From contig PXRM01000020.1 in NCBI GenBank assembly GCA_003020985.1, positions 21,771-85,770 of the forward strand: a stretch of DNA of 64,000 nt, read 5' to 3'. This stretch comes from Halobacteriales archaeon QS_4_70_19. Its GTDB lineage: Archaea > Halobacteriota > Halobacteria > Halobacteriales > Haloarculaceae. The notes under the pieces were generated by a model, which saw nothing but the letters and a program-made list of their open reading frames with translations, ran no database searches and was not told the origin of the DNA. The position numbers and the translations under genes are program-made. This document shows positions 5,061-24,447 of the stretch, one piece after another (position 1 is the stretch's first letter; each line of letters starts with the position of its first letter).

Positions 5061-5129
5061 ACGGAGTCGGGCGAGAATCAGTATGGAGGTCGGAAAACTG
5101 GTTTGAGCGGGCTCACCGACGACTGTACC

Positions 5130-8545: not shown

Positions 8546-8570
8546 TCAAAGACGTAGCTATGGTTGATTG

Positions 8571-8852
8571 ATGTGCGTAACGCACGTGGGGGAGTCCCTG
8601 TTCATCGGTGCGAACCAGGACGCCGCGCTCACCGCCCAGGGGGTGGGGATGGAGGTGGACAAGCCCCTGAGCATGGCCCACAGCGGCGAGGGGGCGCAGG
8701 CGGCCTACGAATCCACGTCCCGCAACGTCCGCGAGGCTCGTCGCGAGGGCGAGGTCAGCGGCTACACCGACGCGGACCGGCAGCGACAGTCCGAGGCTGA
8801 CGACAGCCGAGCGGCGGCCGACTCCAGCGACGGCACCGGGACGCCTATGTGA
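8571..8852 (+). CDS. Hypothetical 93-residue acidic protein
   Basis: Unrecognised protein beginning MCVTHVGESLFIGANQDAAL, with a hydrophilic, Ser/Asp/Arg-rich C-terminal half. No transmembrane segment or motif. A TTG one codon upstream is also possible; the ATG is preferred because of the TATA-like box 30 nt upstream. Its stop codon (in CTATGTGAGCC) falls at the very start of an 84-bp sequence that recurs at 22896, so this is probably the natural upstream neighbour of nop5 before the CRISPR island arrived (inference). Confidence 0.5.
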   Translation: MCVTHVGESLFIGANQDAALTAQGVGMEVDKPLSMAHSGEGAQAAYESTSRNVREARREGEVSGYTDADRQRQSEADDSRAAADSSDGTGTPM

Positions 8853-8928
8853 GCCACCCCGCAACGGGGCCGCATGGACGGTACCGACTCCTCGGACCGC
8901 GGCTGGTTCGAGGGAATCGACCGCGACG
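8845..8928 (+). repeat. Left copy of 84-bp direct repeat (nop5 leader and first 18 codons)
   Basis: This stretch is identical to 22896-22979 except for one base (C at 8884, T at 22935). It runs from the last codon of the upstream gene, through a small hairpin (CCCCG-CAA-CGGGG, 8857-8869), over the nop5 ATG at 8874 and 18 codons. After it the two copies remain homologous at protein level but diverge strongly. The two copies flank the whole CRISPR-Cas/vapBC region. Confidence 0.9.
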
Positions 8929-9152
8929 CCGCGGCCGCGGCCATCCGGAGCGGGAGCGCCGAGGAGCCCGCCGACTGGCCGGCCCGCGCCGTTGAGGCCG
9001 GGTTCGCGGCCGACGAGGCTGACTACTACGACGCCCTCCACGAGACCACGGCGGCGCGGGTGGCCGTCGCCGTGGCCGAGGCGGAGCGCGCCGGCGACCG
9101 CCAGCTGGTCCACGCCGTCCGGGCAATGGACGACATAGTCAGAATACTATAA
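8874..9152 (+). pseudogene. Truncated 5' fragment of nop5 (displaced original head)
   Basis: A 92-codon frame starting MDGTDSSDRGWFEGIDRDAA and ending with AVRAMDD then IVRIL and stop. It aligns along its length with residues 1-89 of the intact Nop5 at 22925, then stops matching exactly after the sequence CGGGCAATGGACGAC (9120-9134). The fragment is GC-rich like host genes, whereas the corresponding part of the intact copy is less so. I read it as the original N-terminal part of the host nop5, cut from its body by insertion of the island. It lacks the coiled-coil and NOP RNA-binding domains, so it cannot work as Nop5. Confidence 0.85.
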
Positions 9153-9303
9153 TAGGCCTTGTTTAGACGCTATCGAATGGCAGAGTCAGGTGGCACTTCG
9201 CCTACTCCATACTCGGGAATGAACATTTCACGGACCAGTTTCGCACTGAGAGTACAACACCTGAGAGCCGATCGTGGTCGCGTCTAAACAAGGTTCTATG
9301 ATA
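9147..9303 (+). mobile_element. MITE-like element with 14-bp inverted ends and 8-bp target duplication
   Basis: CCTTGTTTAGACGC (9157-9170) and its exact reverse complement GCGTCTAAACAAGG (9280-9293) bracket about 110 bp with no coding capacity. Each inverted end is two bases inside an 8-bp flanking repeat: CTATAATA (9147-9154) and CTATGATA (9296-9303), seven of eight identical. The layout is that of a short non-autonomous insertion sequence derivative, about 141 bp without the duplication. It lies 12 bp after the end of the truncated nop5 homology. The family is not assigned. The stretch from 9304 to the array at 9468 holds no gene that I can see. Confidence 0.65.
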
Positions 9304-9467
9304 CTACTGAGAACAGATCACCGACGAGCCGTGCTCAGCTGTCGTCTGCCGCAGTTTACCTGAAACTGGTCGCGACCGGAAGTGATGGTTTTTCCCCGAC
9401 CCAACTCCGATCTCTGAAAGTACAGCCGAAATAGCAAGACCGGACTGATAATTATCGACCAGGACGG

Positions 9468-12400
9468 AATTCAACCCTACGAGGGTCCGTCTGTAACACC
9501 TCCGTCGTGTGGATTCCGCCGATGAGTCGCGGGCTTCAACCCCACGAGGGTCCGTCTGTAACCGCTGGATTGGTACGCCTCGAACAACGGCGCCGAGGCT
9601 TCAACCCCACGAGGGTCCGTCTGTAACGCGTCGGACGTTGTTCCGGAACTCGTCCGAGTCCATGCTTCAACCCCACGAGGGTCCGTCTGTAACGCGCCGA
9701 CAGGCCGAGATCGACGCCAAAGAGTCACAGCTTCAACCCCACGAGGGTCCGTCTGTAACGGTTCCTCCTCGGTGAGTCCGAGCGACTGGGTGAGTGCTTC
9801 AACCCCACGAGGGTCCGTCTGTAACTCGGTGTTCGGGCCGCCAGTGACCGTGAAGCCCTCGCTTCAACCCCACGAGGGTCCGTCTGTAACGCATCCAGCC
9901 CTTGTCGAGTTCGCCCTGTGCGTTGCTTCAACCCCACGAGGGTCCGTCTGTAACCAGCCGCTCGATCCTCCGGTTCACCGACTGCCGGCAGCTTCAACCC
10001 CACGAGGGTCCGTCTGTAACCCAGGGCCAACCCGGCGCCGGCGTGGACGTCGGCGAGCTTCAACCCCACGAGGGTCCGTCTGTAACGGGAGCGGACCGGA
10101 CAGACGGACCCCTCGGTGGTGGCTTCAACCCCACGAGGGTCCGTCTGTAACCGGCGGCACAGTAGCTAACGATACAAATTCTTAGCATGCCCCACCGAAA
10201 CGCTTCAACCCCACGAGGGTCCGTCTGTAACACTGGTCCGTGTCGACAGCGCCGCCGAAGCTGTCGCTTCAACCCCACGAGGGTCCGTCTGTAACTACGA
10301 CCAGTCCCACGACCGACGACCTGCTACCCCACGCTTCAACCCCACGAGGGTCCGTCTGTAACCCGCACCGCCCGTTACGCTCTCACAACACGAGGCGCTT
10401 CAACCCCACGAGGGTCCGTCTGTAACCAACTAAGTGGTTGGCGCTACTGGTGCTTAGGTAGGCTTCAACCCCACGAGGGTCCGTCTGTAACCAGCTCACT
10501 CAATCTCCAGCCAATAACACAGGAGGCTTCAACCCCACGAGGGTCCGTCTGTAACAGCTGTCGGGCGCGGAAGCCCAGCCAGTCGACGCCGGCTTCAACC
10601 CCACGAGGGTCCGTCTGTAACCATCCTCGGAATGAGCCAGCGCCCCGCGAACGTAAAGCTTCAACCCCACGAGGGTCCGTCTGTAACGCCGCGTGTTGGC
10701 CTCGTCCCAGGCCTCGACGATGCTTCAACCCCACGAGGGTCCGTCTGTAACCAGCACTGCCTGTCGGCCCGGGTCGACGTACCCCTCGCTTCAACCCCAC
10801 GAGGGTCCGTCTGTAACGCCGTCGGCCGCCCACGGAAGCTGCGCGCTCCAGGCGCTTCAACCCCACGAGGGTCCGTCTGTAACGAGGCTACATGAGTCCC
10901 ACGGAGCTCAAATGGATGCTTCAACCCCACGAGGGTCCGTCTGTAACTACCCCTGCAACCTGAACCGATGAAACAGAGAAATGGCTTCAACCCCACGAGG
11001 GTCCGTCTGTAACTCGTCCACCGTGCCGGTCAGGATGGCGTCGGCGTGCTTCAACCCCACGAGGGTCCGTCTGTAACTAGATTGCGACGCCGGAGTTCAC
11101 GTCCCACGTATTGCTTCAACCCCACGAGGGTCCGTCTGTAACCGCGGCCGTCGGGGAGAGTTGGCGCCCGGTCGCCGGCTTCAACCCCACGAGGGTCCGT
11201 CTGTAACTCGACGAGCCGCTGGTGCTGGTCGCGACGGATGCTGCTTCAACCCCACGAGGGTCCGTCTGTAACTAGTGACGTCCAGGCTGGTCGAACTGTG
11301 GTTGCTGTCGCTTCAACCCCACGAGGGTCCGTCTGTAACTGTTCGAGATCCGCGAGTCCCGCGGGACGGAGCTGATGCTTCAACCCCACGAGGGTCCGTC
11401 TGTAACCGACGCGAATCCCCGCTGCACCGCCGGTGATGCTGCTTCAACCCCACGAGGGTCCGTCTGTAACTCGTCGTGCTCGTCACCGTCGTGCCCGTGT
11501 CGTCGGGCTTCAACCCCACGAGGGTCCGTCTGTAACAGTACGACGTGACCTGGTTCTCCGCGATCTCCTCCAGCTTCAACCCCACGAGGGTCCGTCTGTA
11601 ACGAGGATGCAGAGATAGGGGCCGTCGACGACCGTGCGGCTTCAACCCCACGAGGGTCCGTCTGTAACCGGGCCCGCAGGATGTCCGCGAGGGCGTTGAC
11701 GCCGCTTCAACCCCACGAGGGTCCGTCTGTAACTGTCTTATCACTCATGCTCGCTTATTGGGGACAGAGGCTTCAACCCCACGAGGGTCCGTCTGTAACC
11801 CGATTCGACTGGGCCGAGACGAAGACGCCAGGCGGGCTTCAACCCCACGAGGGTCCGTCTGTAACGCCTCCCACCATTGGCGCGGCCTGTCGTAGCGGTC
11901 GCTTCAACCCCACGAGGGTCCGTCTGTAACCGCCGGGGCCTTTCGCAAAGGTTTCCACGGAGTGGCTTCAACCCCACGAGGGTCCGTCTGTAACAACCCA
12001 GCGTCAGCATCCCCGACGAACTGCTTGAGGCTTCAACCCCACGAGGGTCCGTCTGTAACGTGACGACCTCGCCGACCGCCAGCCCGGCGACGTCGCTTCA
12101 ACCCCACGAGGGTCCGTCTGTAACGGGCCTGCCGGCACTGCTGCTCGCGTTCCTCGAGCTGCTTCAACCCCACGAGGGTCCGTCTGTAACATCCGGCTGG
12201 CTGACGACCATGCTTACGGCGCCGTAGCTTCAACCCCACGAGGGTCCGTCTGTAACGCGGATGACTGATGCAGTCGATCGACTCCGCCGACGGCCTCGAG
12301 GGCGCTTCAACCCCACGAGGGTCCGTCTGTAACCCTCGATCTCATCCTCCAGCTCGCGCTTCTCCTCGCGCTTCAACCCCACGAGGGTCCGTCTGTAACC

Positions 12401-12727
12401 GTCGCGACGGCGACGGCCGGGGCCATGTGGGGCGGGCTTCAACCCCACGAGGGTCCGTCTGTAACTGGCTCGGGATGGGCCCCACGCTCGGCCGGGAGCT
12501 GCTTCAACCCCACGAGGGTCCGTCTGTAACGGCCTGTCGGTAATCAAACTCGTCGCGGCGAGGCTGCTTCAACCCCACGAGGGTCCGTCTGTAACGCAGG
12601 GCCCCGACCACACGGTGGTGCGGGTGCGATAGCTTCAACCCCACGAGGGTCCGTCTGTAACCGAGTCGCGTCCCCCTCGACCCCGCGGAGTCCATTGGCT
12701 TCAACCCCACGAGGGTCCGTCTGTAAC
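9468..12727 (-). CRISPR. Type I-B CRISPR array, 50 repeats and 49 spacers
   Basis: Fifty 30-bp repeats start at 9468, 9533, 9598 and so on to 12698. On the plus strand each starts GCTTCAACCCCACG and ends CCGTCTGTAAC. On the transcribed (minus) strand the repeat starts GTTACAGACGG and ends GGGTTGAAGC, giving the GTTGAAGC-type 8-nt crRNA handle usual in haloarchaeal I-B systems. Spacers are 34-37 nt, except one of 50 nt (10152-10201) and one of 47 nt (12257-12303). All repeats appear identical except the one at 9468, which differs at three positions (AA for GC at its edge and an internal C to T), marking the leader-distal end. The leader is therefore on the right, next to cas2. Confidence 0.98.
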
Positions 12728-12831
12728 CATAGCCGATTCACCGGCTGTATGGCTCTATATGCCCGAATGCATATCACGATTTCCATCGATTGTCAGTAAC
12801 CCGCTAACCCCCCGGGGGTCGATGGAAAGGG
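12728..12831 (-). promoter_or_regulatory. CRISPR leader with a 9-bp inverted repeat
   Basis: The 104-bp, relatively AT-rich spacer lies between the cas2 stop and the first repeat, on the side where new spacers should be added. It contains TTCCATCGA (12781-12789) and its exact reverse complement TCGATGGAA (12819-12827), 29 bp apart, and AT-rich CTATATG and GCATAT segments around 12754-12773 that could hold the array promoter on the minus strand. The palindrome may be a protein site for Cas1-Cas2 adaptation, or a stem that ends the cas mRNA; sequence alone cannot decide. Confidence 0.7.
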
Positions 12832-13101
12832 CTACAGGAACTGCTGGTCGTCCATCGGATCTTCACCGAATACGTGCCTCTCAACGTATTTTTCGGAGGA
12901 CATCCGGTACACCATCACCGATTCGCCAGCTTGGAGCATCGATTCGAGCTTCGATTTCACTTCTTCAAGAGTCCCCTCGGTGAGTTCCCCCTCGAATACC
13001 GAGTTCTGGACGTGAGTGAGATATCTCCGAAGGTACTTGAGGAACTTCGGCGTCCGATCAGCCTGCACGTCGTAGACGACGATGACGTAGGGCACAATCA
13101 C
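12832..13101 (-). CDS. cas2: CRISPR adaptation protein Cas2
   Basis: Small Cas2 protein (about 89 residues) with the ferredoxin-like start PYVIVVYDVQADRT carrying the conserved Asp, then KYLRRYLTHVQNSVFEGEL and a C-terminal DPMDDQQFL. It forms the Cas1-Cas2 integrase that adds spacers. Several in-frame GTG codons are possible starts (13107, 13104, 13101, 13095). I chose 13101 because GTG there overlaps the cas1 TGA (GTGA), the junction type also seen elsewhere in this operon; 13095 would give the shortest, family-typical N-terminus. It is the last gene of the operon and abuts the leader. Confidence 0.93.
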   Translation of the reverse strand: MIVPYVIVVYDVQADRTPKFLKYLRRYLTHVQNSVFEGELTEGTLEEVKSKLESMLQAGESVMVYRMSSEKYVERHVFGEDPMDDQQFL

Positions 13102-14090
13102 CACCACCGCTCGAAGGGAACGTACTCCTCACCGGTGAGGAGGTGCTTCTTCAGCTTGTACACCTCGATGCGGAGGAGATACTGGTAGCTCACTTTCCGA
13201 TTCAGTCGTGGATGTTCGATGGTCTCATCGAGTGTCTCCTCGAACGCCTTCGAGAACGTCTTCCGGCCGCTCTCGTTCAGTAAGCAGGCGTTGAGATCCT
13301 CCTCGAAATCGTCCAGTCCTAGCTGATTCCGATTCACGAGGCGGAAGATGACACGATCGGCCAGTAGTGGTTTGAACAGGTCTGCGATGTCGAGTGCGAG
13401 CGAGTAGCGTCGCTCCCCGGGTTCGTGGAGGAAGCTCACGGCCGGGTCAAGCGCAGTTGCCCGAATCGCGGACACGACGTTCGCGTACACCAGCGAATTG
13501 CCGAACGAGATGAGACTGTTCACCTCGTTGTTCGGCGGATTGTACTGGCGACCGGCGAAGACGAATCCCTCCGGGAGTACATTATCGAAGATGGAGTAGT
13601 ACGCCCGTCGAGCGGTGGCCTCGACACCCATCAACTCGTTCGTATCCATCTCCGAATCGAGAGCCGCCGATTGCGCCTCCAGTCGAGTGATGACGTCCCC
13701 GAACTCGTGGCCACGACCGTCGTAGTACTTTACGTTCGCCCGCATGTTGTGGATGCTCCCCTGGATGATCTTCCGGGCGATTGGGCGCCGGCGTTCGGGG
13801 TTGTCGTAGGCCCGCACCTGCTCGACGAGCGTTCGCCCGGAGGTCTGGCCACGTTCTGGCATGATCGAGCCGGCATAGTAGTCATTCCAGCCGAAGACGT
13901 GCATCGCGACGCCACTATCATTGAGGAACGAGATGAGCCGCGTGTTGAAGTCTATCTGCCCGTGTAGGAACAGGCCCTCGGCGTTCTCGATCGGGAGATA
14001 CTTTTTTTCGCCCTCCTCGGTGACGAGCCGGACGGTATCGTTGTGGCGTTCCAGGCGGCCGTCGGTGAAGACGTGGTAGTTATCGTTCAT
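13098..14090 (-). CDS. cas1: CRISPR integrase Cas1
   Basis: Cas1 of 330 residues, the usual size for type I-B. An N-terminal beta domain (NYHVFTDGRLERHNDTVRLV) leads to the helical catalytic domain. The metal-binding residues are expected in NPPNNEVNSLISFGNSLVY (Glu), FLHEPGERRYSLALDIADLF (His and Asp). It works with Cas2 and Cas4 in spacer integration. The ATG at 14090 overlaps the cas4 stop by one base (TGATG) and agrees with the normal Cas1 N-terminus. The longer upstream frame is antisense or shadow reading through cas4. Confidence 0.97.
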   Translation of the reverse strand: MNDNYHVFTDGRLERHNDTVRLVTEEGEKKYLPIENAEGLFLHGQIDFNTRLISFLNDSGVAMHVFGWNDYYAGSIMPERGQTSGRTLVEQVRAYDNPERRRPIARKIIQGSIHNMRANVKYYDGRGHEFGDVITRLEAQSAALDSEMDTNELMGVEATARRAYYSIFDNVLPEGFVFAGRQYNPPNNEVNSLISFGNSLVYANVVSAIRATALDPAVSFLHEPGERRYSLALDIADLFKPLLADRVIFRLVNRNQLGLDDFEEDLNACLLNESGRKTFSKAFEETLDETIEHPRLNRKVSYQYLLRIEVYKLKKHLLTGEEYVPFERWW

Positions 14091-14659
14091 CAGCAACTCC
14101 AGCAGAAGTCGTGGTAGGCGCACGAGTCGCAGAACGGTTTCTCCTCGGCGGGTGGCGGAGAATCGCTCGTGACGACATCGTAGACGTCTCTGATCGATTC
14201 CTCGACCCACTCGATGCGTTTCTCGGTGAGTTCGACTGTCTCTCGCTTGCGCTCGGTCGGATGCGCGAGCACGCCCTCACGTTCGACGCCTACGACCCGG
14301 TCGAGATACCAGAGGTAGTAACACAGCTGGAGCTTCGCGGGATCGACCAGCGACGAGGAGGGCTTTACCTCCATCACGCGGCCGTCATCGAGTACGTCGA
14401 TCGCGATGGTGCCGTCGATAGAGACGTTCCGGCGCTTCTCCTCGTAGGCCGACTCGTCGACCTGTGTTCCCCGGACGACAGCTGCGTTGTCCCGGTCGAT
14501 TTCCAGGTACCGGGACGCGAACCAGAGTTCGCGCTCACAGACCTCGTAGTACTGCATCATCACGCCGGTGACGTGGAACTCCTCGTCGACTGCCTCGTCG
14601 CGGGCTGATCTAAGGAGTTTCTCTACGGGGTCGTCGGGGACGGAACTGGAGTCGGTCAT
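14090..14659 (-). CDS. cas4: CRISPR adaptation nuclease Cas4 (RecB-like, Fe-S)
   Basis: Cas4 of 189 residues. A PD-(D/E)XK core is visible as TIAIDVLDDGRVMEVKPSSS (Asp and E-V-K). The four cysteines for a 4Fe-4S cluster are one in YYEVCERELWF and three in the C-terminal CDSCAYHDFCWSC. Family members trim pre-spacer ends and select PAM-bearing spacers for Cas1-Cas2. It overlaps cas3 by 4 nt (ATGA) and cas1 by 1 nt, so the three are translationally linked. A second, unlinked Cas4-like gene is at 39866. Confidence 0.95.
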   Translation of the reverse strand: MTDSSSVPDDPVEKLLRSARDEAVDEEFHVTGVMMQYYEVCERELWFASRYLEIDRDNAAVVRGTQVDESAYEEKRRNVSIDGTIAIDVLDDGRVMEVKPSSSLVDPAKLQLCYYLWYLDRVVGVEREGVLAHPTERKRETVELTEKRIEWVEESIRDVYDVVTSDSPPPAEEKPFCDSCAYHDFCWSC

Positions 14660-17250
14660 AGGAACTGATGTTCGACGCTGCTGTCGGGCACGACGAACCC
14701 CATCGTCGGGTCGAAATGCGCTCCCTGGTCCCGGACATCGAGATGGTAGAGTCCCTCGTCCTCGACCAGTAGTGGGAGCTCCCCGATGGCGTCCGCCGTT
14801 TCGCTGTCCTCTCGGTAGTACGGGACCGAGACCCGGAGTGGCTTCGTCTCATCGAGCAGTCGTCCGAGCCTATCGAAATCGTACCTTTGAGCCGCTTCAC
14901 TGATTTGCTCTGCCAGATCACGCTCGCGGTCGGTGCGGGAGATGAACACGTCGGCTGCTCGCCGCTGATCGATGAGTGACAGTTCCGCGAGTCGGTCACC
15001 GCGTACGTCGTCCACCCAGTCGACGTACTCCTGCTTGCCGACGTTCTTCTCCTCGTCCAGTCGCTCGTAGTACTGCTCGACGGCACGACGGGCCACCGCG
15101 ATCTCGGAGAGGACGCCGTCACCGTCGTCGTCACGGACCGAGGCGAGCGTGCTCGCGGCGACCGGGAGGAGCGATGTATCCCGGTTATACACCGCCTCGG
15201 CGGGCGTTCTCGACTGATTGCCGGGTGCGTCGAGCCACCAAACCGTGACTCGGCCGCGGTCTCGCTCGAACGAGCGGTTACAACGGCCGGCCGCTTGAAC
15301 GACCCCGTCGACCGGCGCCAGGTCCCGGTACACCCGGTCGAAGCTGATGTCGACACCGGCCTCGACGAGCTGCGTCGACACCGTGACGAAGGGGAAGTCG
15401 GGCTCGGTGAGCAGCTTCGCCGCCTCGATGAGTGTCAGCCGGTCAACCGGGCGGAGTCGGGTAGAGAGATGGAGGACGGCGGGTGGTCCTTCATCTTTGA
15501 CAGCCTCCATGATGGCCCCCGGATCGACCCCGTTTCCGGCGTCCATATCCAGGCAGTCGGCGTATACCGTTGCCACGTCCGTCACATCGGCAGTATCCGT
15601 GAGGTGTTCGGTGAGTTCGCGAGCGCTGTCGATGGTATTGCAGACCGCGAGTGCAGATTCTCCGTCGTCGAACGCTGTTCGGAGGTCGGCTGCTGCGGGC
15701 TCGTACGGTTTCGGCCCGGACTGCTCGGCGATGTACCGTTCCGTCGACGCGTCGAGTTCGTACCGGACCCGCTCAGTCGCCTTGAAGTACACCTCCGTGT
15801 CGTCGACCAACTCGGTAGCGTTCTTGAACAGTCGCGGCTGGGTCGCCGTCATCGCGATGACTGTCGCGCCGTACTGCTCGGTCAGTATCTCAACGAGCCG
15901 CGGGACGAGTTTCCACCAGTCCAGCGGGAGACTTTGGGGCTCGTCGAGGACGACGACGCTGTCCCGGAGAGCCGGGAGCTTCATCGACTGCCGGTTCGCG
16001 GGGCCGGCCAGACTCTCGAATAGCTGGACGAAGGTCGTCACGGTCAGTCCAGCACGCCAGCTCTCGGCGAGCATCGCCGCGACATCGTCGTTTTGGTCGG
16101 CTTTCTCGGCGTCCTGCTCGTCGTGGATTGTCGTCTCGGCGAGGTGGTGGTGTGCGGTGAGCAGTCGGCCGGTGGTATCCGTGTCGTAGATCTCCTCCAC
16201 CTCGTCGACCACTTGGTCGATGATGCTCGTGAACGGGAGTGCGTAGATGATCCGTTCGCCACCGAGTCGATTCCGGAGGTCAAACGCGGCAGAGAGCCCA
16301 GTTAACGTCTTTCCAATCCCCGTCGGGAGCGTGAGCGTGGCGACCCCGCCTCCGCCTTCGGCGAACGCCTCGCAGGCATCGAGGACCGAAGTCCTAGCCC
16401 GCGACCGGAGATGGTTTAACTGCTCCGAGCAGGTCCCGTCCGGATCGGCACTCACACCGGCTTCGATCTCGCTCACGTGGTCGTCGAGCCGTTCCAGGGA
16501 CGGCTGTTCCGCCGCGTACGTGCTCCGGTCGTCGGCCGCGCCCGCGGCGCTCGTCTTGTCCGCGAGCACGAGCGTACTCCAGCACTGTAGAGCGAGCCCG
16601 TAACAGGAGCTCGAGAGGGAATCGCGGTCGATCCCCGGAGCCGTTCCTGTCGTCGCGACCGTCGCGGCGATGTCACCGAGCAGTTCTTGGAACCCATCGT
16701 GGAACGCGCCCCAATCGGCCGCGCCCGCCGTCGCGTCCTCGAAGACCTCGGTGGCCATTTCCGGCGCGTTCTCGTCGATGTCTTTGATCTGTCTTGCGAT
16801 AGCGTTCTGTCGCTGCTCGTTCGCGTTCCGCTCCCCCGGATCGACCCCCGCCCGGCGATGGGCACGAGTGTGAACGTAGTCGGCGATATCGGGGAGAAAT
16901 CCGTGGTGTTTGGCGACGGACACGAATCCCGCCACGCAGGTCTCGGTGTCGAACCCGCGAGCGTCGAGGGTGAAGTACGCGGCGAAGGAACCGAGCGGGG
17001 AGTGGTGTCGGAGTAGCTCCGGATTCGGACTCCGGTCCTCCAACAGGTACTCCTGGAAGAACGTCGTGGCCTTCCCGAAGTCGTGGACGTACGCGAGTGT
17101 CTCCACGACAGTGCGGAGTGATTCACCTTCAGGAGTCGTCGCGTCCCCGGGAACGACGTGTTTGACACGCCCGGCAACATCGGTGAGGTGGTCAACCAGT
17201 TCGACGCCCGGTCGCCCGTCCTCCGGAGGGTGTGAGTAGACGATATCCAT
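14656..17250 (-). CDS. cas3: Cas3 HD nuclease-helicase
   Basis: Cas3 of 864 residues, combining an N-terminal HD nuclease with a DExD/H-type superfamily 2 helicase. HD-domain residues include SHP (6-8), DHL (20-22) and the His-Asp pair in AYVHDFGK (56-57). Helicase Walker A is TLPTGIGKT (308-316), and motif II reads DEPQ (436-439) rather than DEAD or DEAH. Motif VI is near VQAAGRCNRSFERDRG. It unwinds and degrades target DNA after recruitment by the Cascade complex. The ATG at 17250 begins MDIVYSHPPED and lies just after the cas5 stop; longer upstream frames read antisense through cas5. Confidence 0.96.
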   Translation of the reverse strand: MDIVYSHPPEDGRPGVELVDHLTDVAGRVKHVVPGDATTPEGESLRTVVETLAYVHDFGKATTFFQEYLLEDRSPNPELLRHHSPLGSFAAYFTLDARGFDTETCVAGFVSVAKHHGFLPDIADYVHTRAHRRAGVDPGERNANEQRQNAIARQIKDIDENAPEMATEVFEDATAGAADWGAFHDGFQELLGDIAATVATTGTAPGIDRDSLSSSCYGLALQCWSTLVLADKTSAAGAADDRSTYAAEQPSLERLDDHVSEIEAGVSADPDGTCSEQLNHLRSRARTSVLDACEAFAEGGGGVATLTLPTGIGKTLTGLSAAFDLRNRLGGERIIYALPFTSIIDQVVDEVEEIYDTDTTGRLLTAHHHLAETTIHDEQDAEKADQNDDVAAMLAESWRAGLTVTTFVQLFESLAGPANRQSMKLPALRDSVVVLDEPQSLPLDWWKLVPRLVEILTEQYGATVIAMTATQPRLFKNATELVDDTEVYFKATERVRYELDASTERYIAEQSGPKPYEPAAADLRTAFDDGESALAVCNTIDSARELTEHLTDTADVTDVATVYADCLDMDAGNGVDPGAIMEAVKDEGPPAVLHLSTRLRPVDRLTLIEAAKLLTEPDFPFVTVSTQLVEAGVDISFDRVYRDLAPVDGVVQAAGRCNRSFERDRGRVTVWWLDAPGNQSRTPAEAVYNRDTSLLPVAASTLASVRDDDGDGVLSEIAVARRAVEQYYERLDEEKNVGKQEYVDWVDDVRGDRLAELSLIDQRRAADVFISRTDRERDLAEQISEAAQRYDFDRLGRLLDETKPLRVSVPYYREDSETADAIGELPLLVEDEGLYHLDVRDQGAHFDPTMGFVVPDSSVEHQFL

Positions 17251-17251
17251 T

Positions 17252-18055
17252 TCAGACGAACACCACGGTTCGGCCGTCAACTCGTGACGCCTCGATATTC
17301 CGTATTTCGAGCGGCTCGGCGTCGGGACTGTACGCGTACGCCGTGAACGAGGTGGTCGTTCGACCCCCCTCGTCGGCAGCCATGAACGCTGGTGACTCCT
17401 CGATGCCACAGCGTGTGGCCGGATCGAGTACGACATCATCGACGGCATCCGGAACCGCCGAATCTATCGCGATGGTGTCCTCCTCGGGTCCGTCTTCGAT
17501 CTCGAACTCGCCGTGGTACTCGATTTGAGCGAGGTGCTCCGAGAGGCCGAGGCTCGGGATGTAGTGTGATTTCCCTGCTTCGAGTGTCTCGCGGAGCTGC
17601 TCGTACCGCTGGTCGTTCGCAAGCGCGATGTCGATCCGGTACGCAGGATCGACGAGTACCTCGTAGTTGTGTTGCTGTCTGAGATCCGTCGGGTCGGGGA
17701 GCTTCACGCTTATCTTTCCCCGACCGTTCAGCGAGTGGAGGTTCTCGGCCGCCGTGGAGAGGGCATTGACGGGCATGTTAACCGTCCGAATCTTCCGGAC
17801 GGGCTCGATGGCGATGCGTGAACTATCCGCCCCGAACAGGTCGTAGTAACCGTCTCGCTCGATACCGAGCACTGCAGCTAACAGCCCCGCGACGGTCGTC
17901 CGTGGGATGATCCGGTACGTCTGCTTGACGATGTTCCCCTCGATGCGCCGGAAGTGACCCCAGGGGCCACGGACGGTCAGCGAGAGACACCGATCCGAGC
18001 CTCCTTCGGACCCGCTGCCGGTCCACTCATCGAGCGAGTTCTGCTCCATTGTCAC
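17252..18055 (-). CDS. cas5: Cascade subunit Cas5 (type I-B)
   Basis: Cas5 of 267 residues. After a Ser/Glu-rich N-terminus the RAMP fold begins LSLTVRGPWGHFRRIEGNIV, with the expected PRTTVAGLLAAVLGIERDGYY segment. In type I complexes it caps the 5' handle of the crRNA and contacts Cas8b. The GTG at 18055 overlaps the cas7 stop (GTGA); an ATG two codons downstream at 18049 is an equally good start. It is followed immediately by cas3. Confidence 0.93.
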   Translation of the reverse strand: MTMEQNSLDEWTGSGSEGGSDRCLSLTVRGPWGHFRRIEGNIVKQTYRIIPRTTVAGLLAAVLGIERDGYYDLFGADSSRIAIEPVRKIRTVNMPVNALSTAAENLHSLNGRGKISVKLPDPTDLRQQHNYEVLVDPAYRIDIALANDQRYEQLRETLEAGKSHYIPSLGLSEHLAQIEYHGEFEIEDGPEEDTIAIDSAVPDAVDDVVLDPATRCGIEESPAFMAADEGGRTTTSFTAYAYSPDAEPLEIRNIEASRVDGRTVVFV

Positions 18056-19134
18056 GAGGTGTCGACATCCGCAGGCAGGGTTTCCGGATACTCCTCGTAT
18101 ACGTCCACCACTGCAACAATTTCCTCGCCGAGCGCCTCTCGGAGGGCATCGTACAACAGGTCGGGGCCGCCCAGTTCGTCGTCGTAGGTGAACTGTAGCA
18201 CGTCGCTGGCCACGACGCGAACACGCTCGATCTGTTCGCGTGCATTCCCGAGCCGCTCCACGAAGGCGTCCGTCTCGACTGCGAGGTCCCTGACGTTCCG
18301 GAGCTGTTCGTCCGGCTTCGACTCCGCTTCGTCGAGCACGAGGTCCTTATCGAACCCGCCGAGGTGGAAGCTCTCCTCGGCGTACTCGACGCGGCAGTAG
18401 AGGCGTGGCTCCTGTCCGACCTTGCTCCGGCTGATAGTCTGGTTCTTCAGCGCCCGCCAGCAGAGCGTATCCAGGCGCTCCACGTCCGCCGTCGTGAGCT
18501 TCGTATCGGCCGCGCCGTGCTCGTCAATCAGCCCGTGGAACCGGATCAGACCGTACTGGATGCGGTGGTCATCGAGGTCGAACCCACCCTGTTCCTTCCC
18601 TTCCTGTGTCGCGATGACGCTCGTGAGGCTGTCGTACTCCTCGTTCTCGTTCACCGCGTGCATCGTCTTCCCGGGCGAGAACTGGACCGGCCCCGTGAAG
18701 TGGTCGGGGAGGTGTTTTGCGTACTCGTTGTCAGTTTCGACCGACATCGTCGCCCCGAAGTAGCGAACGTCGACGCTCCTCTCCAGATACTCGCCGAACA
18801 CGGCTTCACGGAACGCCTCGGCGCCTTCCTCGTCGTCTAGGTCGAACTCGTCCGGCTCGACGGCCTTCAGCCGGTCTTCGAGGAGGTCGGCCCGGGTGTA
18901 CTGCTCACCCTCGTCCTGGACGTTCCGGATGTAGACGCCGTGGCCGTCGTCGTCGAGCTGGTCACGCAGGTACCGCTTCAGCCGCACGTCCGTGACGATA
19001 GCCTGCTGGGTCTGTGGATCGATACGCGGACGGTTCGAGCTGCTCAGTGGGTTCCCATTGGGGTTCGCGTCGACCGCATCGTACAGGAACACGATCTCGG
19101 AACGGTTCGTGACGGTGTCGGTGGAGTCGGTCAT
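18052..19134 (-). CDS. cas7: Cascade backbone subunit Cas7 (type I-B)
   Basis: Cas7/Csh2-type protein of 360 residues. It starts with the family-typical SEIVFLYDAVDANPNGNPLS, and has DVRLKRYLRDQL, the DVRYFGATMS strand and GPVQFSPGKTMHAVNENEE. Multiple copies form the crRNA-binding backbone of the surveillance complex. The ATG at 19134 is preferred to an upstream in-frame codon that would overlap the small ORF. One base separates it from the stop of that ORF. Confidence 0.96.
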   Translation of the reverse strand: MTDSTDTVTNRSEIVFLYDAVDANPNGNPLSSSNRPRIDPQTQQAIVTDVRLKRYLRDQLDDDGHGVYIRNVQDEGEQYTRADLLEDRLKAVEPDEFDLDDEEGAEAFREAVFGEYLERSVDVRYFGATMSVETDNEYAKHLPDHFTGPVQFSPGKTMHAVNENEEYDSLTSVIATQEGKEQGGFDLDDHRIQYGLIRFHGLIDEHGAADTKLTTADVERLDTLCWRALKNQTISRSKVGQEPRLYCRVEYAEESFHLGGFDKDLVLDEAESKPDEQLRNVRDLAVETDAFVERLGNAREQIERVRVVASDVLQFTYDDELGGPDLLYDALREALGEEIVAVVDVYEEYPETLPADVDTS

Positions 19135-19135
19135 G

Positions 19136-19327
19136 TTAGTTCGCCTCGGTGTCGTCGGTGTCATCGTCGGTTGCCACGCTGTCCCACTCCGGGTGGTCGT
19201 TCATTCCGTAGGTGACGCCCAAGGCGTAGTAGAAGCGTAGGTCGTCGGTATCGAGTTCCCAATCGTCTGGGTCCGGCTTGAGGATCGTCTCGCGGAGTCG
19301 CTCGACGACGTGTTCGAACAGAGTCAC
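19136..19327 (-). CDS. Small 63-residue Cas protein: split Cas8b C-terminus or Cas11-like subunit
   Basis: Short helical, acidic protein (starts MTLFEHVVERLRETILKPDP, then DDWELDTDDLRFYYALGVTYG, with an Asp/Thr-rich tail). It starts with GTG overlapping the Cas8b stop by 4 nt (GTGA) in the minus-one frame and ends one base before cas7, so it is clearly part of the operon. Cas8b-family proteins often end in a helical bundle, and in type I-B a small subunit (Cas11) can be made separately. I infer that this is either a detached C-terminal piece of Cas8b or a stand-alone small subunit. A frameshift in the genome or a sequencing error could also explain the split. Confidence 0.75.
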   Translation of the reverse strand: MTLFEHVVERLRETILKPDPDDWELDTDDLRFYYALGVTYGMNDHPEWDSVATDDDTDDTEAN

Positions 19328-21213
19328 CGTTCGATTCTCATTCGGGCACTAGTGACGGATTTCACCGGAAACTGGTCGATCAGCGTCGTGGAACGGCCTT
19401 CCCGGTATCCTTGGTAGCTACCTACTTCCCCGACTAGCGCGCCGAGCAGGAACGCGCCACGGCGCTGGTCGTTGCGCGGTGCGTCCTCGTCGCGAGCGAG
19501 TGCCGGCGTGTCTTCGATGAACGATTCGAGCTTCGCCGCGGCGGGGTGGCCGCCGTCGGCAGCGAGTATGTCGGTCGGTGGTTCCATGATGGTTTCCTCG
19601 TACGTTGGTTCGCGCGTAATCGGTCTTTTCCCCTCGTCGTCCGTCGTCAGCAGGTCGAGTTCGTCGGTCGCGAGCGCACAGAGCTGTGCGAACTGCCCGG
19701 CGACACGGAACGAGGGAAACCCCTCGATCTCCTCGTCGGTCTGCTCGCTGACGATGCGGTTGACGTACTCACCGAGCAGCGTCTCGACAGGAATCGACTC
19801 ACCCCCAAGCACGGCGACGAGCGCCTTGATCCGTGGGTCGTCGGCGTCCGCGTCCTCGTCGTCCCGCTCGGCGAACGTCTGGTAGAAGTACCAACCCGTC
19901 GAGACGGAGCCGAGACGCCCGTCGTCACCGGCGAGCAGACTCCAGTTCTCGTGGGTCGGGAGCGGTGCCGTCCAGTCCGTGTCGGACCGGAACGCGGAAG
20001 ACTTCTCGACGAGGCGGTTGTGCTCGGTGGCGAGCGCCTTCGGGTAGAGCAGCCGCCCGTTCAGCGTCTCGCCAAACACGTCGTAGCGCGACATCTGGTG
20101 GGGCATCACGGCTGAGACGTAGAACCGGAGTTCCGAATCACCGAACAGTGTCTCCCGGTTATCATACGCTCGCTCGACCGGAGTCAGGTCGTCGTCCTCG
20201 GTCACGGTATTGTACAACAGGGTGTACAGGTCCCGGAAGTTCTCCGGCGACGGCCGTCCCCAGACGTACGGTAGGTAGTACACCTTTGCGCCGAACGTCC
20301 GGTACGTGCACGACTCGACGAACGTTCCCGCGTTCATCACGGTCACCGCGGCGTCCTCGGAAATCGGGTGACTCCGCCATGCCTCCTCGATGTCGAGCCC
20401 AGGGAACGTCTCCAGTTGCTTGCCGAGAAAGTAGTTCTGCGGGTCCTCCGAGGTACCGACCGTTCTCGTCGCCTCACCGGTGACGAGGTCGGTCGCATCT
20501 CCGGAGGAGTCGTTGGCCTTGTTCTTCGTGACGAGCTTCGAGAGCTTCCGCGCCCGCATCGCGGCCAGGAACGCGTCAAGATCCCCCGGCCACTGATACT
20601 CGCCATCAGCGTCAAGGCGTACCTGCACTGTGAGCAACGCGGTCGTGGATTCGCCGCCGAGTGCCGTCGTCAGCGCTTCCTCGATCTCGTCCAGGGCGTT
20701 CTCGTTCTCCCCCAGTTCCGCCAGTCCCTTGACGACCCACCCGTCCTCGTGCGTCTCTACGGCCTCCTGCACGACCTCATTAGTCGCCCACCTCGTTAGT
20801 CGCTCCTTCGCGTAGCGGGCGAGTTTTTCGGGGTCGCTGTTCCGCCCGGCCTGGTGTGTGACGCTGTGGTCGATACCAGCGGCGGCTGAGAACTTGCAGT
20901 GAGCGACCTTCTGCACCAGTTCGTCGCTGTACCGTGTCACCCACACGGGCCCGCGATCGTCGGCAGCGAGCCCCGGATCGTCCCCCGAGAGGTCCACGCG
21001 GACGACGATGAGACTATCGTCGGTGTCAATCAGGTCGCCTGCCGCGTCCGGAGTGAGATACGGCGCGTACTCGCCGCCACCGGTCGTCGCCAGCGTGTAG
21101 AGCTTCCCGTAGAGGTACTGGATGTCCCGGAGCGACCCGACCGGTGAGTCCGGGAGTTCCTCGGCGAGTTCCGACTCCGGGTAATCCGTACGGAACTCGT
21201 CAGGCGAAAGCAT
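19324..21213 (-). CDS. cas8b: Cascade large subunit Cas8b (haloarchaeal Csh1 type)
   Basis: Large subunit of 629 residues. It opens MLSPDEFRTDYPESELAEEL and has the haloarchaeal Cas8b pattern: DIQYLYGKLYTLATTGGGEY, a middle with KVYYLPYVWGRPSPENFRDLY, and the C-terminal RRGAFLLGALVGEVGSYQGY. In I-B complexes it recognises the PAM and starts R-loop formation. It ends earlier than I would expect and is followed in another frame by the 63-residue ORF. Its start overlaps the end of cas6 by 14 nt. Confidence 0.92.
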   Translation of the reverse strand: MLSPDEFRTDYPESELAEELPDSPVGSLRDIQYLYGKLYTLATTGGGEYAPYLTPDAAGDLIDTDDSLIVVRVDLSGDDPGLAADDRGPVWVTRYSDELVQKVAHCKFSAAAGIDHSVTHQAGRNSDPEKLARYAKERLTRWATNEVVQEAVETHEDGWVVKGLAELGENENALDEIEEALTTALGGESTTALLTVQVRLDADGEYQWPGDLDAFLAAMRARKLSKLVTKNKANDSSGDATDLVTGEATRTVGTSEDPQNYFLGKQLETFPGLDIEEAWRSHPISEDAAVTVMNAGTFVESCTYRTFGAKVYYLPYVWGRPSPENFRDLYTLLYNTVTEDDDLTPVERAYDNRETLFGDSELRFYVSAVMPHQMSRYDVFGETLNGRLLYPKALATEHNRLVEKSSAFRSDTDWTAPLPTHENWSLLAGDDGRLGSVSTGWYFYQTFAERDDEDADADDPRIKALVAVLGGESIPVETLLGEYVNRIVSEQTDEEIEGFPSFRVAGQFAQLCALATDELDLLTTDDEGKRPITREPTYEETIMEPPTDILAADGGHPAAAKLESFIEDTPALARDEDAPRNDQRRGAFLLGALVGEVGSYQGYREGRSTTLIDQFPVKSVTSARMRIER

Positions 21214-22015
21214 CCTGTCCCTCCAGTTCCGTTTCCCCCGGTTGCGTCCGTTCGACGATGTTGACGAACCCGAACCCGAGTCCGTTGCGCCCGCCGATAC
21301 CCGTATCGAGCGCGAGATTCAGATGCTTGCGGTGGGTGTCGTCCCGAACGCGGTAGTCGAGGCGCCACTTGCTCACCACCATGTCTAATTCGACACCCTC
21401 GGTGACCGTCGTCGGCAGCGCATAGGTCTTGATGAGGTCGTACCCCGAAAAGAGGTCCTCGTCGACCGTTTCGGGACCGGGAAAGTACTCCGGAGCGAAC
21501 CGCTCGTGCTTCCCCTGGAGGTTCTCCGTGATCGCGTCCCGGAACGGTTCGATGGTGAACTCCGGCTGCCAGTACGTGGGCGAGTCCTCGTGTTCGTCGT
21601 CGATACCGTACTCTTCCCGGTGCTGATTGTACAGCCGAACGACGACGCCCGTGGCCGTCTCGATGACTCCACGCGTCCCAGGCTCCCCGACATCCACATC
21701 GAGAGGCGAGAGCCCTTCAACCTCGAAGGCCATCTCACCGATGTTAAACTCGCGGTCGGACTGGAAGTTTCCGGCGATGGTTGCGAGGAGCTCCTCGCGC
21801 GGGGATGCTAGGATCAGCTTCCGACCATCTCCCTCCGCTATCTCGCCCCACGGGAAGATGTTGGAAAACGAGAGCCCCATCGGCGCCCCATCACTATGCT
21901 CCTCCTCGAATCGGGTATCCTGTAGCGCGCGCCAGATCCGTCCGCGGAGTTTGTGGTGATAACTGGTCTGATACGTCGCGTCCGACTGGGCACGCAAATC
22001 GATCATCAATCGCAC
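21200..22015 (-). CDS. cas6: crRNA-processing endoribonuclease Cas6
   Basis: Cas6 of 271 residues, the first gene of the operon. The N-terminal ferredoxin-like domain contains TSYHHKLRGRIWRALQDT, and the C-terminus has the glycine-rich loop GIGGRNGLGFGFVNIVE that defines the family. It cuts the pre-crRNA within each repeat, leaving the 8-nt handle. The GTG at 22015 gives MRLMIDLRA, the family-typical beginning; an ATG three codons later (22006) is possible. Confidence 0.95.
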   Translation of the reverse strand: MRLMIDLRAQSDATYQTSYHHKLRGRIWRALQDTRFEEEHSDGAPMGLSFSNIFPWGEIAEGDGRKLILASPREELLATIAGNFQSDREFNIGEMAFEVEGLSPLDVDVGEPGTRGVIETATGVVVRLYNQHREEYGIDDEHEDSPTYWQPEFTIEPFRDAITENLQGKHERFAPEYFPGPETVDEDLFSGYDLIKTYALPTTVTEGVELDMVVSKWRLDYRVRDDTHRKHLNLALDTGIGGRNGLGFGFVNIVERTQPGETELEGQDAFA

Positions 22016-22180
22016 GTCAACTCCCCCACGCCTCCCTATCTATCCAGTAGGACAGCATAACCATGCGGTCAGGAACTATCTTAATAAAGGTGTGGGGCCG
22101 AACGCATGTTGGAGCCGATTCCCGGTTCGTCCGTAAAAGTGGGAACAGATGTTAAATATTCCCACTCCCTCGTTGCGGAC
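22016..22180. promoter_or_regulatory. Divergent promoter region between cas6 and vapB
   Basis: This AT-richer gap drives the cas operon leftwards and the toxin-antitoxin pair rightwards. On the minus strand a TATA-like CCTTTATTAAG (22080-22090) lies about 65-75 nt before the cas6 GTG, implying a short untranslated leader if it is used. On the plus strand GTTAAATATTCCC (22151-22163) lies about 25 nt before the vapB ATG, the usual leaderless spacing. No operator is obvious. Confidence 0.5.
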
Positions 22181-22429
22181 ATGAGTGGAGAAGTGCGAAC
22201 GGACGAGCGTGGGCGTGTGACGATTCCGAAGAAGGTACGCGACCGCTACGGCGAGAAGTTCCGCCTCGTCGAGCTGGACAGCGGTATCAAACTGGTGCCG
22301 ATCCCCGACGACCCGCTGGAGGAACTACGCGCAGCGGCTTCCGACGAGCTTCGCGAGGCGGCCCTCGATGATCTCGAAGAAGCGGCTCGAGAGGAGGCAC
22401 GTGAGCAGGCTAGTGAACATGTACGCTGA
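22181..22429 (+). CDS. AbrB/SpoVT-type antitoxin (VapB-like)
   Basis: An 82-residue protein with an N-terminal swapped-hairpin AbrB domain (VRTDERGRVTIPKKVRDRYG, then RLVELDSGIKLVPIPDDP) and an acidic helical C-terminus that would wrap the toxin. The ATG at 22181 lies about 25 nt behind a TATA-like box and starts just before the domain. It overlaps the downstream PIN-domain gene by 11 nt, the standard arrangement of a type II toxin-antitoxin operon, in which the antitoxin normally also represses the promoter. Confidence 0.88.
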   Translation: MSGEVRTDERGRVTIPKKVRDRYGEKFRLVELDSGIKLVPIPDDPLEELRAAASDELREAALDDLEEAAREEAREQASEHVR

Positions 22430-22805
22430 TCTCGACTTCTGGCTGGCGCTACTGAAAGACGACGACTGGCTGGCCGATCGAGCCGAGTCCCTTCTCGACG
22501 AATACGAGAACGAACTCGAGGTGTCGCTGGCGACGTTCATCGAGCTGTTCCTCATCGAAGCGCGGTTCGCCTTCGATCGCGAACGTGCCGTAACGGCAAT
22601 CCTCGAACTGGCAACCTGCGATGGCGATCCCGATGTCGTGTATCAGGCATCGGAGAACATCGACGAAGGGTTGAATACGTTCGATGCGTTCCATGCGGCT
22701 CTCTCCGGTGGAAGCATCATTTCCAGTGATCGGGCGTACGACGGACTCAGTGGTGTCGACCGCATCCGGCTCGAACCCGACGAGAACGAAGGTTCTACGG
22801 CCTGA
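22419..22805 (+). CDS. PIN-domain ribonuclease toxin (VapC-like)
   Basis: PIN-domain protein of 128 residues. Acidic active-site residues are visible: the first Asp in MYADLDFWLALLKDDDW, Glu in TFIELFLIEARF, Asp in NTFDAFHAALSG and the last Asp in IISSDRAYDG. It would act as an RNase toxin held in check by the overlapping VapB-like antitoxin. It lies between the cas operon and nop5, so it would help stabilise the island (inference). The ATG at 22419 fits the N-terminal beta-strand. Confidence 0.88.
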   Translation: MYADLDFWLALLKDDDWLADRAESLLDEYENELEVSLATFIELFLIEARFAFDRERAVTAILELATCDGDPDVVYQASENIDEGLNTFDAFHAALSGGSIISSDRAYDGLSGVDRIRLEPDENEGSTA

Positions 22806-22895
22806 GTTCGATGGCGTTCAGGTAGTGGAACAAGCTATCACTCTCGGCAACCGACTCGCCACGGTCGTCGGCACCCGAGCCAGTCTCCAGTACGT

Positions 22896-22979
22896 CTATG
22901 TGAGCCACCCCGCAACGGGGCCGCATGGACGGTATCGACTCCTCGGACCGCGGCTGGTTCGAGGGAATCGACCGCGACG
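22896..22979 (+). repeat. Right copy of 84-bp direct repeat
   Basis: Near-identical counterpart of 8845-8928 (one mismatch), spanning the nop5 5' flank, hairpin CCCCG-CAA-CGGGG (22908-22920), start codon at 22925 and 18 codons. The distance from repeat start to ATG is 29 nt in both copies. Here it leads into the full-length nop5. Confidence 0.9.
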
Positions 22980-23815
22980 ACGATGAGGCAGCCACACAGG
23001 CCATCCGCGATGGCACCGCCGACGCCACCGCGGACTGGCCCGCCCGCGCGGTCGAGTCGGGGTTCGCTGCCGACGAGGGAGACTACTACGACATCTTACA
23101 CGACGCGACGATGGCGGCCACGCGAGCGGCGGTACAGGAGTACGAGCGGTCGGATGACCGACAGTTGCAGCATAGTATTCGGGCGATGGACGACTGCGAG
23201 CGCGTCGCCAACGAGCTCGCCGAGCGCGTCGCCGAGTGGGCCGGGACGCTGGTCGACGACGGTGGGACCGGCGTCGGGTTCTGCCGCGACCTGGCCGACC
23301 GCGACCCGGCGCCGGCGGAGCGACGGGTCGTTGAACTCGCCCGGCGGGTGCGTGACCTCGACGACGAGGCCGCCGAACTGCGGGCCGGCATCGAGCGGAC
23401 CGCCCCCGAGGTGGCTCCGAACCTCTCGGCGCTGGCCGGGCCCGTCCTCGCGGCGCGGCTCGTCGCACTCGCCGGCGGGCTCGAGACGCTCGCCCGCAAG
23501 CCGTCGGGGACGGTGCAGGTGCTGGGGGCCGAGGAGGCGCTGTTCGCGCACCTCCGGGGGCGCGCGCCCTCGCCGAAGCACGGCGTCATCTACACGCACG
23601 AGGCCGTCCGGAACACGCACCCCGACGACCGGGGGTCGGCGGCACGGGCGCTCGCGGGCAAACTAAGCATCGCCGCCCGCGCCGACCACTACACCGGCGA
23701 GCGCCGGCCGGAGCTCGACGAGCAACTGCGCGAGCGCATCGCCACCATTCGGGCGCGGCGGGACGACGAGGCCGCCGAGGGTGCGGGGTCCGGCGCCGGA
23801 GGTGACGGCGCATGA
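22925..23815 (+). CDS. nop5: Nop5/Nop56/58-like box C/D RNP core protein (apparently chimeric)
   Basis: Nop5 of 296 residues, scaffold of the box C/D RNA-guided 2'-O-methylation complex with L7Ae and fibrillarin. Order: N-terminal fibrillarin-binding region (1-90), coiled coil (about 90-160), then the NOP RNA-binding domain, with GTVQVLGAEEALFAHLRGRA and SPKHGVIYTHEAVRN. It overlaps flpA by 4 nt. The first 89 codons use less GC-biased codons (TTA Leu, AGT Ser, ATT Ile) and match a second, truncated copy at 8874. After CGGGCGATGGACGAC (about 23176-23190) codon use becomes strongly GC-rich. The gene therefore looks like a fusion of an island-borne head and the host body. Confidence 0.93.
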   Translation: MDGIDSSDRGWFEGIDRDDDEAATQAIRDGTADATADWPARAVESGFAADEGDYYDILHDATMAATRAAVQEYERSDDRQLQHSIRAMDDCERVANELAERVAEWAGTLVDDGGTGVGFCRDLADRDPAPAERRVVELARRVRDLDDEAAELRAGIERTAPEVAPNLSALAGPVLAARLVALAGGLETLARKPSGTVQVLGAEEALFAHLRGRAPSPKHGVIYTHEAVRNTHPDDRGSAARALAGKLSIAARADHYTGERRPELDEQLRERIATIRARRDDEAAEGAGSGAGGDGA

Positions 23816-24447
23816 GCGACCTCCCGGCGGGCGTCGAGCGCCACACGTTCGACGGCGAGGAGCGCCTCGCCACGCGGGGGCCACCCGCGTACGGGGAGCC
23901 GACCGACGGCGAGTGGCGGGCGTGGGACACCGGCCGCTCGAAGGTCGGGGCGATGCTCGACCGCGGCCTGGATACCGGCCTCGCTGCGGACGCGACGGTG
24001 CTCTACCTGGGCGCGGCCGCGGGCACCACCGTCTCGCACGTCGCCGACATGGCGGGGCCGACGTACGCCGTCGAGTTCGCCCCCCGGCCGGCCCGGGACC
24101 TGCTCGACGTGGCGGCGGAGCGCCCGAACCTGTTCCCGCTCCTGAAGGACGCCCGCGAGCCGGGGACGTACGCGCACGCCGTCGAACCCGTCGACGTGCT
24201 CGTGCAGGACGTGGCGACCCGTGGCCAGGCCGACGTGGCGCTGCGCAACCGGCGGTTCCTCCGGGACGACGGCCGGCTGCTGCTCTCGGTCAAGGCCCGC
24301 AGCGAGGACGTCGTGGCGCCTCCCGACGAGGTGTTCGACCGGGCGCTCGCGACCCTGCGCGAGGGGTACGAGGTGCTCGCCACCGAACGCCTCGCCCCGA
24401 CCCACGACGACCACCTCGCCGTCGTGGCGGCGCCGCTGTCGGAGTAG
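23812..24447 (+). CDS. flpA: Fibrillarin-like rRNA/tRNA 2'-O-methyltransferase
   Basis: Fibrillarin homologue of 211 residues. The SAM-binding motif is TVLYLGAAAGTTVSHVADM, then TYAVEFAPRPARDLLDV, with VDVLVQDVATRGQADVALRN and the catalytic-core strand RLLLSVKARSEDV. Together with Nop5 and L7Ae it methylates ribose 2'-OH groups chosen by box C/D guide RNAs. Its ATG overlaps the nop5 stop (ATGA), so the two are made together. Confidence 0.95.
   Translation: MSDLPAGVERHTFDGEERLATRGPPAYGEPTDGEWRAWDTGRSKVGAMLDRGLDTGLAADATVLYLGAAAGTTVSHVADMAGPTYAVEFAPRPARDLLDVAAERPNLFPLLKDAREPGTYAHAVEPVDVLVQDVATRGQADVALRNRRFLRDDGRLLLSVKARSEDVVAPPDEVFDRALATLREGYEVLATERLAPTHDDHLAVVAAPLSE

Follow-up and report, generated by a model that had tools for sequence, protein, structure and literature searches.

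Attachment sites that lie inside genes are known in archaea, for instance that of halovirus BJ1 in the gene for HMG-CoA reductase and those of the thaumarchaeal iMGEs (PMC8371274, PMC6563490); the 14 reported thaumarchaeal insertions into protein genes are at the 3'-distal ends of their targets (PMC6563490). The pTN3-like integrases of Thermococcales target the 5' half of tRNA genes, and IntSNJ2 of the pleolipovirus SNJ2 shares its operon with two small genes, of which one has a coiled-coil motif (PMC8371274). Type I-B CRISPR-Cas systems encoded by proviruses have been described in haloarchaea, with integrases near some of the loci; the proviral system of Haloferax lucentense has no cas1, cas2 or cas4, and the paper does not mention nop5 (PMC12596717).

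In a literature search that left out most subscription papers and preprints, no paper describing integration into nop5 came up. The locus described here lies in a 64,000-nucleotide stretch of DNA from Halobacteriales archaeon QS_4_70_19, referred to as the window, in which a type I-B CRISPR-Cas island stands between two copies of the 5' end of nop5. As far as sequence comparison can establish it, this island is very probably a mobile element that carried a nop5 head of its own, integrated at a fixed site in nop5 and has since lost its integrase.

Two nop5 heads in the window

The nop5 gene, which serves in RNA methylation, is essential, and the nop5 head contacts fibrillarin. As the earlier note had observed, the 5' end of the gene occurs twice in the window. 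One copy is cut short, at 8874-9134, its ORF reading through to a stop at 9152; the other, from 22925 onward, begins an intact gene of 296 aa with a Nop domain (PF01798, E=1.4e-38). The features concerned, named as we interpret them, are as follows.

8845..8928, + strand: 84-bp block, left copy, a probable gene-conversion tract
8874..9134, + strand: displaced host nop5 head, 87 codons, now outside any complete gene; used in the head comparisons and tree
22896..22979, + strand: 84-bp block, right copy
22925..23194, + strand: element-borne nop5 head, the first 90 codons of the restored gene; used in the head comparisons and tree
23195..23815, + strand: host nop5 body (Nop domain)
23812..24447, + strand: fibrillarin gene, native right flank

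The two copies of the 84-bp block agree at 83 of 84 bases, the single difference being a C/T about 40 bases in. Past the block the protein identity of the two heads is ~65-71%, and their match stops exactly at GC(A/G)ATGGACGAC. The left head has a GC3 of 0.94 and the right head one of 0.82, compared with 0.92 for the nop5 body and 0.97 for fibrillarin, so that the odd part is the head of the intact gene. The earlier note had described all of this correctly: a block with one differing base, divergence thereafter to about two-thirds protein identity, the point at which the left copy stops matching, and a GC-rich left head set against an intact gene that begins with rarer codons and becomes host-like in its body.

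The same note had taken the 84-bp block for the core of the event, and here it was mistaken. The crossover maps to the opposite end of the head, in the 12 bp GC(A/G)ATGGACGAC, and the block is shared neither by the element heads of other loci nor by the genus relatives, so it was rejected as an attachment core. Because every other copy from the genus that we compared agrees with either window copy at only ~70 of the 84 positions, the block is best read, by inference, as the trace of a recent conversion event in which one window copy replaced the 5' end of the other. Both window copies have a host-type hairpin upstream of the start codon, and the element head of genome G001 has one of another type, suggesting that the host copy may have been the donor.

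The proposed attachment site and its recurrence

The ends of the proposed element, and the sites within them, were placed as follows.

9123..9134, + strand: attL core GCAATGGACGAC
9135..23194, no strand: integrated element, ~14.06 kb, with the exact crossover somewhere within the 12-bp core; GC mostly 0.58-0.65 against ~0.70 outside
9142..9150, + strand: element left-end arm GAATACTAT, which repeats the arm at 23172-23180 in inverted orientation
9157..9293, no strand: MITE-like insert with perfect 14-bp inverted ends CCTTGTTTAGACGC / GCGTCTAAACAAGG, directly after attL; read from the sequence
23153..23188, + strand: element-type head signature, 36 bp, present in 15 of 394 genomes of the order
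23172..23180, + strand: element right-end arm ATAGTATTC, within coding sequence
23183..23194, + strand: attR core GCGATGGACGAC, coding for AMDD of the RAMDD motif

The 12-bp core is present at both ends inside the target (9123-9134 and 23183-23194) with one synonymous difference, and is flanked by the inverted arms ATAGTATTC and GAATACTAT, perfect over 9 bp. RAMDD occurs also in a solved archaeal relative of Nop5, which places the core on a strongly conserved motif. When attP was built for each element by joining its right end to its left end, the joined site consisted of GC(N)ATGGACGAC bordered by the arms ATAGTATTCG and CGAATACTAT. In G069, G287 and G354 the arms match perfectly over 10-11 bp, and in G001, G036, G136 and G367 they are imperfect; summed over the eight elements the arm match is 65, against a shuffled mean of 47.1, and no shuffle out of 5000 reached it. 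In the restored gene the left attP arm is read as coding sequence, CAT AGT ATT CG; the AT-rich codons CAT AGT ATT thus belong to an attachment arm, which accounts for the rare codons that had been noticed there. Most native heads have CACGCNGTCCG or a close variant at the position of the arm.

A search with the head protein over 148 genomes of the family showed that the window genome, G001, G036, G069 and G136 each have a further, truncated head lying upstream of the intact gene. A 36-bp AT-rich DNA signature, derived from the terminal part of the element-borne heads, matched in 15 of 394 genomes of the order, from 10 genera (none for the reversed pattern used as control), and loci fetched from these matches added displaced heads in G287, G354 and G367. 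At eight loci, the window included, the displaced head is seen to end at the RAMDD codons, with small changes in some, and to be followed by an AT-rich element end. In all, seven other haloarchaeal genomes have the same crossover and a head left behind, with inserts of ~1 to 75 kb. A two-copy arrangement with an identical break point in seven other genomes excludes chance, and its presence on a 4.18-Mb contig of G001 excludes an assembly artefact. G287 and G354 belong to one genus, in which only 3 of 29 genomes carry the signature, and may share one insertion.

Unoccupied sites were found in relatives. In G003, which is of the same genus as the window genome, homologues of the genes at 3671, 4461 and 5103 are followed directly by nop5 and fibrillarin.

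5103..5576, + strand: native left-flank gene, whose homologue lies 449 bp upstream of the unoccupied nop5 in G003

At the other seven loci, the gene flanking the displaced head is directly or closely upstream of nop5 in element-free relatives. The earlier note had forecast that in relatives the gene at 8571 would adjoin nop5, which failed in G003, where the neighbour, 449 bp away, is the 5103 homologue. It had also held that a right-type head in relatives without CRISPR would count against an inserted element. Such heads do occur, in G001 and G002. The element in G001 has BREX genes in place of CRISPR, which ties the head to the element family and not to CRISPR.

In G002 and G004, ~13 and 19 kb of host-like DNA lie between the 5103 homologue and nop5, without a displaced head. 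Neither head has the attachment arm: the one in G002 (locus L126) is element-like, and the one in G004 (L128) is chimeric, element-like in its 5' half and host-like in its 3' half. It looks as though heads in this genus were often converted, or the site often occupied in the past; by inference, both loci look like relics of past occupancy. In the window, 6780-8345 encodes an AAA_14/DUF4143 ATPase and 8568-8852 is a short ORF that matches a vWA-like protein of G004 in its C-terminal part. In G004 the same gene set is found between the 5103 homologue and nop5, and similar genes are inverted inside the 74.5-kb stretch of G001. This stretch may be a composite, as it holds a gene set whose window counterpart is not part of the element and whose G004 counterpart is close to nop5.

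Most element-borne heads are closest to the heads of other elements, often from other genera, and the bodies that follow them are closest to host relatives. In G302 the head is nearest that of G367 (87%) and the body nearest that of locus L080 (88%), and the right head of the window is closest to the element head of G001 (87%, against 70% for the left copy). Several displaced heads pair with host relatives in the head tree (G001 with G003, G069 with L051, G367 with L080). The element heads require 5 label changes on this tree against 15.2 when labels are shuffled (0 of 500 shuffles as low); the tree rests on only 90 columns and has many open forks.

Integrases and cargo

Related tyrosine recombinases with the domains PF00589 and PF02899 are encoded upstream of the element-borne head. 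They are intact in G001, G069, G136 and G426, and broken or truncated in G225, G287, G354 and G367; the three first compared are ~57-64% identical, and in G136 nop5 starts ~9 bp after the integrase gene. In the family search the three integrases linked to nop5 scored closest, though the model had itself been built from these rows. Integrases of the wider group that are more distant, at fifteen fetched loci, were rejected, as none adjoins nop5; those at L163, L165 and L174 adjoin other conserved genes, the one in L163 for example being near a glmS-like gene. In G426 and G001 the integrase is preceded by two small ORFs (L148, 970-1940; L118, upstream of the G001 integrase), which have no family match above the cutoff.

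The window element has no integrase, and none of this subfamily was seen in its assembly (46 contigs, 82% complete). Since the gene is absent there and intact in G001, G069, G136 and G426, the window copy is an integrase-less derivative and not a self-mobile member of a family that itself qualifies as tyrosine-recombinase elements. Comparison of the family integrase with a phage collection gave no match at E 1e-5, the presence of SNJ2 in the collection being unconfirmed. No circular form, virus or plasmid with the head or a close integrase was found among phages, IMG/VR and PLSDB; a head match on a plasmid was set aside as belonging to a complete nop5 of the ordinary kind on a megareplicon of Natrinema, and the integrase matches were distant.

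The cargo of the window island was annotated as follows.

9468..12727, - strand: CRISPR array, 49 perfect 30-bp repeats and one degenerate
12832..13107, - strand: cas2
13098..14090, - strand: cas1; the ORF runs on to 14210
14090..14659, - strand: cas4
14656..17448, - strand: cas3, as ORF; the true start is probably near 17240
17252..18055, - strand: cas5b
18052..19164, - strand: cas7b
19324..21213, - strand: cas8b
21200..22015, - strand: cas6b
22106..22429, + strand: AbrB/MazE-like small protein, possible antitoxin; weak, sub-threshold match
22368..22805, + strand: possible PIN/VapC toxin, without family match

All cas genes have PADLOC matches, with I-B models for Cas5, Cas7 and Cas8b, and together with the array they make a complete type I-B set (cas6, cas8b, cas7, cas5, cas3, cas4, cas1 and cas2). 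The island had been said to carry the array, all cas genes and vapBC. Its first two items hold and can now be typed as I-B; vapBC could not be substantiated, as the AbrB/MazE match is below threshold and the ORF at 22368 has no match in Pfam, NCBIfam or PADLOC.

CRISPR-Cas I-B was found at four loci of the family, namely the window, G225 (at a contig end), G287 and G354. Elsewhere the cargo comprises the BREX genes PglX, PglZ, BrxC and BrxHII (G001), PbeA and PbeC with a methyltransferase (G136) or an Mrr-type nuclease (G367), and the family cargo is mostly made up of interchangeable antiviral or defence systems, whose activity is inferred. G287 and G354 (L154-L157) have very long CRISPR arrays, of 118 and 131 repeat matches, and broken integrases. 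The cas cassette of the window is oriented opposite to those of G287 and G354, and its Cas1 is closest to Cas1 of loci not seen at nop5 (86% for G024, 85% for G087), being only 75-76% identical to the nop5-borne Cas1 of G287, G354 and G225. A single origin of the CRISPR cargo finds no support in this, and the opposite cassette direction together with the closer Cas1 outside nop5 makes it likely, on these comparisons, that such cargo was captured at least twice. None of the four CRISPR-bearing copies has an intact integrase. Domestication of these copies by integrase loss is only suggested by this, as the cases are few and partly related, and G225 ends at a contig end.

Proposed integration by head swap and comparison with known systems

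In the mechanism that we propose, a family-specific tyrosine integrase would recombine attP, carried by the element in circular form, with the attB site of nop5, the attachment site being a 12-bp core in the 5' part of the gene with GCNATGGACGAC as the putative point of recombination. The element would supply its own upstream region and the first 90 nop5 codons, so that the head is swapped and a chimeric nop5 remains uninterrupted, while the old host head would be left at the far end, 14 kb away in the window. The circular intermediate, the action of the integrase and excision are inferred, as is expression of the chimeric gene. The window copy keeps both arms and has no integrase, so it would either stay where it is or depend for any movement on an integrase supplied in trans. 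The earlier note had proposed that an element with its own nop5 head displaced the old head and rebuilt the gene; eight loci, the inverted arms, integrases at the expected end and the empty sites uphold that proposal.

Haloarchaea recombine readily, and a foreign cas-bearing segment with a divergent nop5 might have been acquired by transformation and have recombined in the conserved part of the gene without any integrase. The absence of an integrase from the window element and the 84-bp near-identical tract shared by its two heads would fit such homologous recombination. We nevertheless hold it to be very unlikely: eight loci whose cargo is unrelated share one and the same break point, inverted arms surround it, related integrases, intact or broken, are at the expected end in eight genomes, and the element heads cluster across genera.

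The near-identity of the two 5' ends over 84 bp would equally suit a local tandem duplication of the nop5 5' end, into which the CRISPR island was inserted later. That account is scarcely credible when, beyond these 84 bp, the heads share only ~65-71% protein identity, the left copy lacks a nop5 body, the right head is closer to the G001 element head (87%) than to the left copy (70%), and the same arrangement recurs with other cargo. Next to no credence can be given to a transposon or casposon-like Cas1 insertion that chanced on nop5, with the head duplicated afterwards. In its favour are the presence of Cas1 and the MITE-like insert at the left end, but the repeat is a whole divergent head rather than a short target duplication, and the elements at the same site in G001, G069 and G136, which have a tyrosine integrase and no Cas1 match in the fetched stretch, largely refute it. 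Integration of an element with its own nop5 head by site-specific recombination remains our reading of the locus.

Whether this amounts to a dedicated family of haloarchaeal elements that shuttles interchangeable defence systems into nop5, with the head as a built-in, toxin-free safeguard and the CRISPR-bearing copies as domesticated members, is a tentative proposal that we ourselves regard as somewhat doubtful. If it were true, imprecise loss of a defence island would break nop5, and the island would be stabilised without a toxin. The loci offer a precise and recurrent vehicle and landing site for haloarchaeal defence, including complete CRISPR-Cas, where such mobility is elsewhere often inferred only from patchy trees. 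Occupied sites can be searched for in any haloarchaeal genome with the 36-bp signature. The loci also provide a clear example in which an element targets the 5' part of a conserved protein gene and supplies a head and upstream region of its own, so that expression coupling, exclusion and domestication become directly testable questions.

Like BJ1 and the thaumarchaeal iMGEs, the nop5 elements use a conserved coding gene and a short core, and keep the gene intact by means of element-borne sequence; unlike the thaumarchaeal 3'-distal cases, they replace the 5' part (90 codons and the upstream region) and leave the old head behind. Type I-B CRISPR-Cas would be mobile here as in the haloarchaeal proviruses, and the window differs from those in having all cas genes and a fixed nop5 site. 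A haloarchaeal integrase with two small ORFs before it, as in G426 and G001, recalls IntSNJ2, though SNJ2 targets the 3' end of a tRNA gene (PMC8371274) and the integrase of the nop5 elements would target nop5. The pTN3-like integrases resemble the nop5 elements in targeting the 5' half of a gene, so that the restored gene would be expressed from element DNA (PMC8371274); they are suicidal and use tRNA genes, whereas the nop5 elements keep the integrase gene apart from the att site and have a protein gene as their target.
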